The notes under the pieces were generated by a model that did no database searches, was not told the origin of the DNA, and worked only from the letters and a program-made list of their open reading frames with translations. Made by a program: the position numbers and the translations under genes. A DNA stretch of 64,000 nt from Candidatus Baltobacteraceae bacterium (GTDB lineage Bacteria > Vulcanimicrobiota > Vulcanimicrobiia > Vulcanimicrobiales > Vulcanimicrobiaceae), in the NCBI GenBank assembly GCA_036488875.1, contig DASXGW010000001.1, positions 186,001 to 250,000 of the forward strand, read 5' to 3'. Positions 3,553 through 6,380 of the stretch are shown in pieces (position 1 is the stretch's first letter; each line of letters begins with the position of its first letter).

Positions 3553-4689
3553 TTAGCGAAGCGTGCCGTCGGCCGCCACGGTCGAACGAACGTCGCGCCA
3601 TTTAACGGTTCGCCCGAACATGCTGACGAGCCATATCGCTAAGCTCATTACGTCGCGCACCGGGATGAGCCACCAATACGATTTGCGACGATTGCGCAGC
3701 GCGCCGCGCGATGCCAGGTGCAAGAACCAGCGCAGCATCGCGATATAGAGAAAGAGCGTAAACGACGGCCAGCCCGGAGCGAGCAGCAGCAATGCGAATG
3801 CGAACGGCACGGCGTACATCACGAAAGAAAAAGCGTAGCCGGCCGGCGCCTGGGCGCGCTTGGTTCGCGCCCAACGTAGCTCGTGCGAGCAGAGATCGGC
3901 AAACTGCTTTTCCGGAACCGACGTGCTTACCGTGTAGGGACAGAGCGTGACCGTGCGTCCCTGTTTTGCGACGAGCTCACCCAGCTCGTGATCGTCGGCG
4001 AGATACGGCCCGAGCGCTTCCAAACCGCCGATGCGCTCGAGCAGATCGCGCCGAACGGCCATGGTCGCTCCCATGCAGAAGCGCAGCGGTCCGAGCGCCA
4101 GCGCTACGAGAACCGAGGGAAGAAACTCGTCCTCCACGTGCATCGCGCCGAGTTCGGACACGATGGTACCGTTGGGAATCGCCCCGTACGGGCAGGTCGT
4201 CGCGCCGGTGCCCTCGGTCGCGAACTCCGCGGCAACGGCTCGAAGGTACTCCGGCGTCACGATCACGTCGCTATCGGCGATGACGACGATCTCACCGTTG
4301 GCCTCGGCGCCCGGTTTAGCAAGGTTGGCGATCTTCGGGTTGGCCATCGCGTCGTTGTGACCGAACGCAACGCGAATCGTCGTGTGAAAGAAATCGCCGC
4401 GTATGCGTTCCACGATAACGGCCGCCGGATCGTCCTCGTCGTGCAAGCAGAAGACGACCTCGTAATTGGGATAATCCTGCGTGCAAAATGACGCCAGGGC
4501 CTCGTAAAGGCCCGCTTCGACGCCTGCGACCGGCTTGAGGACGGTGATGCTCGGCGCGAGGTCGTCGTCAACGATGGCGGGTATCGTGCGGCTCGCGAAC
4601 GCGCCCGTACGCATGAGCGCCAGCATGAGATACGCCAGCCCCGCCGCGGAGATGATGACGAGTAGGACGATGAAGAAGATGGCTACGAT
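3553..4689 (-). CDS. hpnI: HpnI-like hopanoid glycosyltransferase (GT2)
   Basis: Adds N-acetylglucosamine to bacteriohopanetetrol at the inner membrane (family knowledge). The GT2 pattern is clear: SITVLKPVAGVEAGL, then a VIADSDV metal-binding motif, DDHELG, and HELRWARTKRA as the (Q/R)xxRW block; C-terminal membrane helices follow. From the first ATG (4626) the protein has 357 residues but loses a transmembrane helix that is encoded in frame just upstream (IVAIFFIVLLVIISAAGLAYL). No ATG, GTG or TTG lies in that extension before a TAG; an ATC at 4689-4687, eight bases after AGGGCAGG, is the best start and gives 378 residues. The whole gap to hpnK is one copy of a repeat found again in front of hpnK. 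The neighbour hpnK encodes the next enzyme. Confidence 0.85.
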   Translation of the reverse strand: MVAIFFIVLLVIISAAGLAYLMLALMRTGAFASRTIPAIVDDDLAPSITVLKPVAGVEAGLYEALASFCTQDYPNYEVVFCLHDEDDPAAVIVERIRGDFFHTTIRVAFGHNDAMANPKIANLAKPGAEANGEIVVIADSDVIVTPEYLRAVAAEFATEGTGATTCPYGAIPNGTIVSELGAMHVEDEFLPSVLVALALGPLRFCMGATMAVRRDLLERIGGLEALGPYLADDHELGELVAKQGRTVTLCPYTVSTSVPEKQFADLCSHELRWARTKRAQAPAGYAFSFVMYAVPFAFALLLLAPGWPSFTLFLYIAMLRWFLHLASRGALRNRRKSYWWLIPVRDVMSLAIWLVSMFGRTVKWRDVRSTVAADGTLR

Positions 4690-4694
4690 GGTAT

Positions 4695-4742
4695 GCGCCT
4701 GCCCTTCGACTTCGCGCCTACGGCGCTACGCTCAGGATGACA
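4695..4742. repeat. Dispersed intergenic repeat, copy A
   Basis: This 48-bp element begins GCGCCTGCCCTTCGACTTCG and ends CTACGCTCAGGATGACA, exactly as copy B at 5550-5597. Their central parts differ and contain short GGCGC-rich inverted bits. Copy A fills the junction between hpnK and hpnI and supplies the stop codon and last residues of hpnK (read on the minus strand as TCATCCTGA). It resembles, from memory, the TGTCATCCTGAGCG-type intergenic sequences scattered through many bacterial genomes. Confidence 0.75.
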
Positions 4743-5547
4743 ATGCACCATACGTGGTGCTTTCAATGTGGTTGCGGGTGAGTGCTTCGCGAACGGCTGG
4801 GCTCGTAAGTGCGTCGAGTTCTTCTTTCCACTGGAAACGGTCCGTCCCGGCGTCGGCACCGGCGAACGGGCCCGTCGCCGGATGGAAGAACAACTCGGTA
4901 ACGCCGTTGGGTAAGCCGTCGAGCATCCGCAGCACGCGCGCTTCGTTCATCGCGCCGGCGTCGTTGACGCCGTATACGTAGTCGTTGCTCGTCACGCCTT
5001 GACGGCGGGCGCGGGCACGCATGAGCGCCACCCACGGCTCGATCGTGCGTGTACCGCCGTACGGTTCGCGCGGAATGCGGATCGCGCGCATTCCGAACTC
5101 GCGCCCGACCTTGAGTATCAGGCGATAGACCGTCGGATGGACGTGCATATGGCTTTGCGCGTCGACGTGATCCAGGGCGAGTCCCGTGGCGGCGAACCGC
5201 TCGAACTGCGCGCGGATCTCGGCCTCGAGCTGGCGTGCAGCGCCTGGACGAAAGAAGAAGGTTACTCCGGCGCCGACGAGATCGGTAAAGAAGCGGCCGT
5301 CCCGGCCGACGATCTTCGCAATGCGTTCGGGCGGCAGCACGGGCTTCCCATGCACCAGCACGACGTGTAAGCCGACTGCTAACGACGGCAGTCCCCGCGC
5401 CCGTTCGACGGCATCGTCGAACGCCGGCGCGCCCGTCATCAGACTGGCTGCGCGAAGAACCCCATTACGATGCGCGATTTCGATCGCTTCGTTGACTTCA
5501 CGTGAAATACCGAAGTCGTCGGCGTTAAAGATGACGCGCTTAATTAG
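4732..5547 (-). CDS. hpnK: HpnK-like hopanoid deacetylase (ChbG/YdjC family), probable ATT start
   Basis: Deacetylates the GlcNAc moiety of bacteriohopanetetrol (family role of HpnK). Conserved metal-site motifs are visible: NADDFG near the N-terminus and HVDAQSHMHVHP in the middle, plus LAVGLHVVLVHGKP. The first canonical start (ATG at 5439) would delete NADDFG. The frame continues upstream as IKRVIFNADDFGISREVNEA to a TAG at the repeat edge, with no ATG, GTG or TTG. Family members usually begin M-K-R-x-I, so the ATT at 5547-5545 sits exactly where Met belongs; it gives 271 residues. AAGGGCAGG from repeat copy B lies eight bases upstream and may serve as the ribosome site. A start-codon mutation or a sequencing error is the alternative. 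The last residues come from repeat copy A. Confidence 0.82.
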   Translation of the reverse strand, partial: LIKRVIFNADDFGISREVNEAIEIAHRNGVLRAASLMTGAPAFDDAVERARGLPSLAVGLHVVLVHGKPVLPPERIAKIVGRDGRFFTDLVGAGVTFFFRPGAARQLEAEIRAQFERFAATGLALDHVDAQSHMHVHPTVYRLILKVGREFGMRAIRIPREPYGGTRTIEPWVALMRARARRQGVTSNDYVYGVNDAGAMNEARVLRMLDGLPNGVTELFFHPATGPFAGADAGTDRFQWKEELDALTSPAVREALTRNHIESTTYGALSS

Positions 5548-5549
5548 AG

Positions 5550-5629
5550 GCGCCTGCCCTTCGACTTCGGCGCTTCGCGCCTACGCTCAGGATGACAAGT
5601 AGCGGTATGGCGCTACGCTCAGGATGACA
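5550..5629. repeat. Dispersed intergenic repeat, copies B and partial C
   Basis: Copy B (5550-5597) shares its first 20 and last 17 bases with copy A at 4695-4742. A partial copy C (5610-5629) repeats only the terminal CGCTACGCTCAGGATGACA. Together they fill the gap between pgl and hpnK. Read on the minus strand, copy B ends in GAAGGGCAGGCGC five bases before the presumed ATT start of hpnK, the same offset as copy A has to the presumed ATC start of hpnI. Confidence 0.75.
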
Positions 5630-5639
5630 GATCTTGGCG

Positions 5640-6380
5640 CTACCCCGTTTTCTGGTGAAGCATTCCCGCCGCGAGCTCGTCGACGAGCCAAAGCAGCCGT
5701 CCCGATGACGGATGAACGATCTGCGCCGGATACTTCGTCGCGTCGACCGGCCCTTCGACGACCTTTGCCAAGATGTCCGCCTTCGCGGCGCCTTCGACTG
5801 CGAACGCTACGGTGCGGCCAAGATTGATGAGCTTCGGCGTGATCGTCACGCGCCACATTCCCTGCGATTCCGCGAAGACCGCACGAACCAGCACCGAATC
5901 GTGCAGGTCCGGCGGCGAGCCCGGGAAGAGCGACGCGGTGTGACCGTCGGGCCCAAGCCCCAGCAACACGAGATCGAAATGCGGCGGGTCCTGGAGATCC
6001 GTGCGGATGATCGAAGCGTAGTTGTTGGCGGCCGCACCGGGATCGGCTTCCCCGCGAATGCGATGGACGTTGGCGTGCGGAATCGGAACCGCGTCGAGAA
6101 ACGCTTTGCTCGCCATCCGATAGTTCGACTGCTCGTCCTCGGGCGGCACGCAGCGCTCGTCACCAAAATAGATAAAGACGTCTTTCCACGGCAGTGCCAA
6201 GCTGCGCGGCTCTTGCGCGAGCAGCTCGTACGCGCGCCGGGGCGTGTTGCCGCCCGAGAGCGCGACGCGAAAGGCGCCGCGATCGCACAGTGCCGTTTGA
6301 CCGACGTCGATGAACAAGTCGGCCAATGCGGCCGCAACCGCATCGGCGTTGGGATACACTTTTACTTCGCCGCGCCGCAT
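5640..6380 (-). CDS. pgl: 6-phosphogluconolactonase
   Basis: Hydrolyses 6-phosphogluconolactone to 6-phosphogluconate, step two of the oxidative pentose phosphate pathway, in the cytosol. The 246-residue protein has the DevB/SOL features: RVALSGGNTPRRAYELLA (phosphate-binding loop), FGDERCVPPEDEQSNY, and LGLGPDGHTASLFPGSP with the catalytic-region His. Length is normal for the family. Its ATG shares one base with the stop of opcA (TAATG), so translation is coupled. It is the last pathway gene of the tkt-to-pgl run; two hopanoid genes follow on the same strand after a repeat-filled gap. Confidence 0.95.
   Translation of the reverse strand: MRRGEVKVYPNADAVAAALADLFIDVGQTALCDRGAFRVALSGGNTPRRAYELLAQEPRSLALPWKDVFIYFGDERCVPPEDEQSNYRMASKAFLDAVPIPHANVHRIRGEADPGAAANNYASIIRTDLQDPPHFDLVLLGLGPDGHTASLFPGSPPDLHDSVLVRAVFAESQGMWRVTITPKLINLGRTVAFAVEGAAKADILAKVVEGPVDATKYPAQIVHPSSGRLLWLVDELAAGMLHQKTG

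Follow-up and report, generated by a model that had tools for sequence, protein, structure and literature searches.

Near-cognate starts and coupled gene pairs

The gene infC, coding for the initiation factor IF3, has a start of the AUU/AUA type that is conserved among relatives and is combined with a strong Shine-Dalgarno (SD) sequence and feedback on IF3. An AUU start is also documented for pcnB and, to our knowledge, such starts have seldom been documented beyond infC. AUG starts are reported to be generally maintained by purifying selection (PMC5622118). In Streptomyces, sigR begins with a GTC codon that is described as conserved in the genus, of low output and repressed by IF3 (PMC5472188), and overproduction of IF3 has been reported to lower reinitiation (PMC2268962). 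As for neighboring genes, the NTGA overlap (-4 nt) is described as more frequent than any other close spacing (PMC12548453), and for 14 gene pairs a coupling by termination-reinitiation was reported as validated (PMC6728339).

We have analyzed a stretch of 64,000 nucleotides from a Candidatus Baltobacteraceae bacterium (the window), in which hpnK, a hopanoid gene adjoining pgl, appears to open at the rare codon AUU, translation from which we infer by comparison. Like infC and, within a genus, sigR (PMC5472188), it has a non-canonical start that is conserved among relatives. In contrast to infC, the hpnK of the same-genus genome G001 has no SD sequence, and, unlike hpnK, which is known from sequence, sigR is described with an extensive SD (AGGAGGTG) and a measured repression by IF3 (PMC5472188). 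In relatives of this hpnK the stop and the start share bases or lie a few nucleotides apart, as in the NTGA and ATGA pairs of the reports (PMC6728339, PMC12548453), but the start is CTG or ATT instead of the usual ATG, GTG or TTG, and in the window the pair is split by a repeat. In four genomes of the family (G000, G001, G006 and G009; loci L148, L149, L150 and L151) infC itself apparently starts at AUA behind a GGAG-type SD, with canonical starts only farther upstream. Since infC appears to start at AUA in these genomes, near-cognate starts under IF3 probably belong to the biology of the clade.

The hpnK start in the window

All the features described here are on the minus strand. The gene for 6-phosphogluconolactonase (pgl, TIGR01198) is located at 5640..6380 and its TAG stop lies 95 nt from the ATT of hpnK, a distance beyond the stop-start proximity expected for termination-reinitiation. 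Between both genes there is a repeat (5547..5629) made up of a partial unit from 5629 and another from 5597 that ends in GGGCAGGCGC-CTC. hpnK covers 4732..5544 (270 codons counted from the ATT at 5542..5544, plus the stop) and its TGA (4734-4732) is provided by a second copy of the repeat (4692..4742), so that the protein ends in ...ALSS. It is followed by hpnI at 3553..4689, with 378 codons plus the stop if counted from the ATC at 4689-4687, a tentative start. The assignments are clear, with HpnK reaching 351.3 bits against a curated cut-off of 232.6 for TIGR03473 (residues 2-268 over model positions 2-281 of 283), and HpnI 374.6 bits against 310 for TIGR03472 (residues 8-377 over positions 6-370 of 373).

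The hpnK junction reads ...GAAGGGCAGGCGC-CTCTA-ATT-AAG-CGC. As the sequence-only reading of this DNA had noticed, both genes are devoid of ATG, GTG or TTG back to the in-frame stop, and the ATT of hpnK sits where the family has its methionine. We find the stop at codon -13 in hpnK and at codon -12 in hpnI, and residue 1 of HpnK aligned to position 1 of TIGR03473. The first in-frame ATG is located at 5439, 35 codons in and already beyond the A-D-D motif, which was invariant across all 13 aligned HpnK sequences.

A repeat-free counterpart in the same genus

We searched 60 genomes, the window's own included, and found an HpnK match in 27, one of them the sole other genome of the genus (G001), whose HpnK is 81% identical to that of the window. 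The gene order is the same in G001 (the gene upstream of pgl, pgl, hpnK and hpnI). Neither repeat is present and there are clean empty sites at the positions of both. The pgl-hpnK junction reads ACG-TAA-CGGCA-ATT-AAG-CGG, with the ATT-AAG kept at the equivalent codon and without any in-frame ATG, GTG or TTG over 53 codons. Because this repeat-free genome carries the same ATT, the codon predates the repeat, as far as the comparison of both genomes shows. It had been proposed that the repeat forces initiation at this codon or that its insertion erased the original start. For hpnK neither idea survives, and the repeat was rejected as the origin of the ATT.

The hpnK genes of both genomes have diverged with a dS of 1.01 and a dN of 0.152, and for the first 35 codons the values were 0.90 and 0.077, respectively. 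The low dN against the high dS ahead of the first in-frame ATG indicates that this stretch is under constraint, a sequence signature of purifying selection on the full-length frame.

Start codons and spacing among relatives

In a scan of named genomes (80 loci) the closest HpnK (71% identical) was that of a Candidatus Eremiobacterota MAG (JAFAJV010000001.1, locus L042), whose hpnK start is a CTG overlapping the pgl stop (CTGA). Within the family, HpnK was detected at E <= 1e-40 in 52 of 99 genomes. The start codons of relatives were inferred from the alignment, and for the 11 complete hpnK starts of the sister genus g36 this gave GTG in five, CTG overlapping UGA in four, TTG in one and ATT in one. 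The last case (genome G072, locus L158) has the ATT overlapping the UAG of pgl and an in-frame TGA at codon -6; the codons AGA CGA GGG CAC ATT AGC precede the conserved KRVIFNADDFG and nothing else is found after the TGA. Hence, in the window, G001 and G072 there is no ATG, GTG or TTG from the upstream stop to the conserved N-terminus, and ATT is the codon in both genomes of the genus, with and without the repeat. The comparison of relatives that the earlier reading had itself proposed turned out against a need for the repeat, since ATT is found in the repeat-free G001, another ATT start exists in G072, and 5 of the 11 sister-genus genes have ATT or CTG with no repeat directly upstream. Actually, ATG is absent as a start from all 13 hpnK genes in these two genera, compared with its use in 178 of 364 sampled gene starts (placed by a coding-potential heuristic), which is notable because AUG is reported to be generally kept by purifying selection (PMC5622118).

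The odd codons go together with tight spacing in a set of 14 close genes, which includes one from a third genus (L164) and leaves out L163 and G070, whose hpnK is truncated or incomplete, as well as L042, which seems to come from the genome of L153. When the hpnK start was at most 5 nt from the pgl stop, the codon was CTG or ATT in six out of six cases (+5 in G001, -4 in L153, L154, L156 and L160, and -5 in L158). Seven of the other eight genes had GTG or TTG, the exception being the window, with its stop 95 nt away. A one-sided Fisher test, calculated by hand and uncorrected for kinship, gave 7/3003. An HpnK tree of 17 rows requires a minimum of four changes between canonical and non-canonical starts, so the link found in these sequences stands on few independent lineages.

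Looking more broadly, we surveyed 100 hpnK loci (L045 and L053 were omitted as repeats of L019 and L022), and 16 had no canonical start at -15..+2. In seven of these a CTG shared bases with the stop that ends an upstream frame of at least 298 codons, two had ATT, and the remaining seven may have longer N-termini. Three of the seven CTG-overlap loci are labeled proteobacterial (L064, L097 and L114). Candidate CTG starts that overlap the stop codon of the preceding gene are found at L017:1507, L024:1486, L026:1495, L064:2501, L097:2501 and L114:2483. In the three proteobacterial loci the upstream gene, presumably HpnJ-like, ends in a REGVEF tail. A bare CTGA was discarded as evidence of a CTG start. 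In the sample from the window's own genome CTGA made up 5 of 81 in-frame NTGA overlaps, and four of these five have an adjacent ATG (as the next codon in three and just before in one). The telling criterion is a CTGA without a canonical start nearby.

A Shine-Dalgarno-like sequence within the repeat

Both copies of the repeat contain the SD-like sequence AAGGGCAGG, which occupies 5553..5561 and 4698..4706, with a spacing of 8 nt to the hpnK ATT and to the first hpnI ATC, respectively, and a computed duplex of -7.8 kcal/mol in each case. The pairing was calculated between the 17 bases ending 4 nt upstream of the start and an assumed anti-SD tail; the 16S gene was not found in G000 or G001. For hpnK the value goes from +0.2 kcal/mol in G001, without the repeat, to -7.8 in the window, which equals or beats 93% of the 364 sampled gene starts (median -3.0 kcal/mol). 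Thus, from the proposal that the repeat supplies a ribosome site and forces ATT, the SD-like sequence and its computed strength hold, and the forcing does not, ATT being present in G001. When the window mRNA was folded by prediction, most of the SD region came out as paired (mean unpaired 0.30), although the AUU was open. The insertion plausibly gave a formerly coupled hpnK start its own SD-like site, as modeled from the pairing.

The start of hpnI

The situation is less clear for hpnI, where the junction reads ...GAAGGGCAGGCGC-ATACC-ATC-GTA-GCC. Codons 1, 4 and 7 are all ATC, the first in-frame ATG is at codon 22, and the start region offers only ATC, TTC, GTC, CTA and similar codons. Residue 8 corresponds to position 6 of TIGR03472, which puts the model start near residue 3 and the first ATC two residues ahead of position 1. 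In g36 the hpnI starts are ATG, GTG or TTG at the equivalent of about codons 3-10 of the window frame, a few having another option slightly upstream, although the alignment is uncertain here (MAFFT and inspection put the TTG of L042 at different window codons). In G001, which has no repeat, the start region contains a CTG and likewise no ATG, GTG or TTG nearby, and going upstream the first ATG is met after 22 codons, within hpnK. The family alignment would place the start at or inside codon 3; most likely, judging from these sequences, it is a near-cognate codon, with AUC favored, or a very weak site, and the insertion of the repeat possibly erased the former start.

The gap of five bases after GAAGGGCAGGCGC is indeed present before both the ATT of hpnK and the ATC of hpnI, as had been noticed, and part of it belongs to the repeat itself, since most of the 42 copies finish on the right with GCGC(A/C)TC. 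The equality of the offset hinges on picking the first of the ATC codons of hpnI, and if the start were the ATC at codon 4 the pairing would fall to -2.0 kcal/mol. The identical offset is weak evidence because any one of these ATC codons, or none, may serve hpnI. It had been considered unlikely by chance; by our rough estimate a same-frame ATH at +5 would be about a one-in-ten coincidence.

The dispersed repeat

The tail of the repeat occurs 42 times in the genome as an exact match, sometimes in arrays, with the consensus TGTCATCCTGAGCGTAG...GAAGTCGAAGGGCAGGCGC(A/C)TC. The genome-wide count suggested by the sequence-only reading went against a general role in initiation. Just two copies are followed within 60 bases by the start of a gene on the same strand, both in the hpnK/hpnI operon, and the next nearest were at 61 and 69 bases; with the other 40 lacking such a start, the repeat was dismissed as a general donor of ribosome binding sites. 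The family is widespread, with 61 matches to TCATCCTGAGCG in G001 and between 16 and 152 matches to TCAYCCTGAGC in each of twelve other relatives. An array at L122:8536-9640 (G000:C1:68535-69640) has nine forward and then four reverse copies about 60 bases apart.

With REP-like dispersed intergenic repeats this family shares its short length, many copies, both orientations and arrays. In contrast to the REP moved by RAYT, a Y1 (RAYT-type) transposase (PF01797) was found in none of the 10 genomes searched, and the identification as a RAYT-mobilized REP was rejected, although in draft genomes such an absence is weak evidence. Text searches of the literature on the repeat core and on hpnK/CTG starts gave nothing pertinent among the matches listed, which is not proof of absence; by title, the matches listed for the repeat core dealt with unrelated eukaryotic or clinical topics.

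The end of hpnK is often occupied by this family. Among 13 hpnK-hpnI junctions of two genera (L163 counted, and L157 left out as no hpnI was found there), six had hpnK ending in a complete or remnant repeat, which may point either way (L009, L154, L155, L158, L161 and L162), and in all six the TGA of the repeat is the hpnK stop. Within the sampled genes a repeat TGA serves as the stop in 3 of 460. The hpnK end could be either a spot of repeated insertion or the site of one old insertion that is decaying.

Proposed origin of the AUU start

We consider it likely that the AUU start of hpnK evolved under coupling with pgl and that the repeat later broke the coupling and brought an SD-like site. 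In the ancestor, the hpnK start would have been located on or beside the pgl stop, and ribosomes ending pgl would restart there by termination-reinitiation. Such coupling may let the start codon drift to near-cognates, with the possible outcomes of a CUG overlapping UGA (four sister-genus species), an AUU overlapping UAG (one) and an AUU five bases after UAA (G001). In the lineage of the window, a dispersed repeat would then have inserted between pgl and hpnK, leaving 95 nt between the pgl stop and the start, and the AAGGGCAGG that it placed at 8 nt from the AUU already there may replace the lost coupling. A second copy would have inserted at the end of hpnK, giving this gene its stop and separating hpnI. 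The broader version, in which the start codon is under weaker selection when stop and start are tightly coupled, drift of hpnK to CUG or AUU has recurred where it touches the pgl stop, and the repeat of the window then swapped coupling for a chance SD-like site that keeps the inherited AUU usable, is more tentative and we would lean against it as a whole.

The idea that ribosomes bind at a site brought by the repeat itself and are thereby tied to ATT or ATC, or else that its insertion erased earlier starts, fits the good spacing of AAGGGCAGG in both copies and the hpnI of the window, which has lost any TTG, ATG or GTG like the start of most relatives. It seems to us improbable given the ATT of G001 without the repeat, the other ATT in G072 and the 40 of 42 tail copies with no same-strand gene start within 60 bases. 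Decay, with the starts lost and full-length HpnK and HpnI no longer made in the genus, would explain that two adjoining genes are hit and agrees with the patchy presence of hpnK in the family. Yet neither gene has a broken frame in the window or in G001, and dN/dS was about 0.15 for hpnK and 0.32 for hpnI, ratios that average the whole divergence and are blind to recent decay; we regard decay as unlikely, if slightly less so than the action of the repeat.

It could also be argued that hpnK starts at another near-cognate, a GTC or ATC a few codons in, and that the ATT merely aligns with the methionine. GTC is reported as a proven start in Streptomyces sigR (PMC5472188), and there are GTC codons at -7 and +3 from the ATT and an ATC at +4. 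On the other side, position 1 of TIGR03473 and the ATG or GTG of many relatives coincide with the ATT, G072 has its ATT one codon earlier, overlapping the pgl stop, and a start within the first strand would drop conserved residues of that strand, all of which makes this option doubtful, about as much as the one based on the repeat. Much less credible still is a frameshift near the end of pgl producing a Pgl-HpnK fusion that needs no hpnK start. Followed upstream, the frame of hpnK continues without a stop through pgl in G001 (53 codons) and L042 (302 codons), but an in-frame stop closes it in the window (13 codons upstream) and in G072 (6), and close relatives have independent GTG or TTG starts.

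Returning to the proposed coupled origin of the AUU, an annotation restricted to ATG, GTG and TTG cannot call such a start, and hpnK will be cut past its active-site motif or missed. If odd starts do track tight coupling, CTGA and ATTAG junctions could reveal more mis-annotated genes. G001, with close-set genes and no repeat, and the window, split by the repeat, form a matched pair for reinitiation against SD at a near-cognate; if the proposed history is true, nature would have provided in them a before-and-after test of coupling against SD-driven initiation at such a codon.

Coding potential upstream of canonical starts

A sample of 435 predicted complete genes was scored for coding potential, from 27 regions (about 578 kb of 3.7 Mb) that were picked for holding the repeat and are not random. 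In this sample, 13 genes had at least 8 coding-like codons before the first ATG, GTG or TTG, and a genome-wide habit of odd starts was discarded on this count. hpnI ranked second (9.7) and hpnK eighth, with a weakly positive score (2.6), so hpnK would not stand out by coding potential alone. The top scorer was a 116-codon frame at L142:19142-19492 (minus strand) with 84 coding-like codons before its first ATG, GTG or TTG, which could be another odd start or a fault of the gene model.
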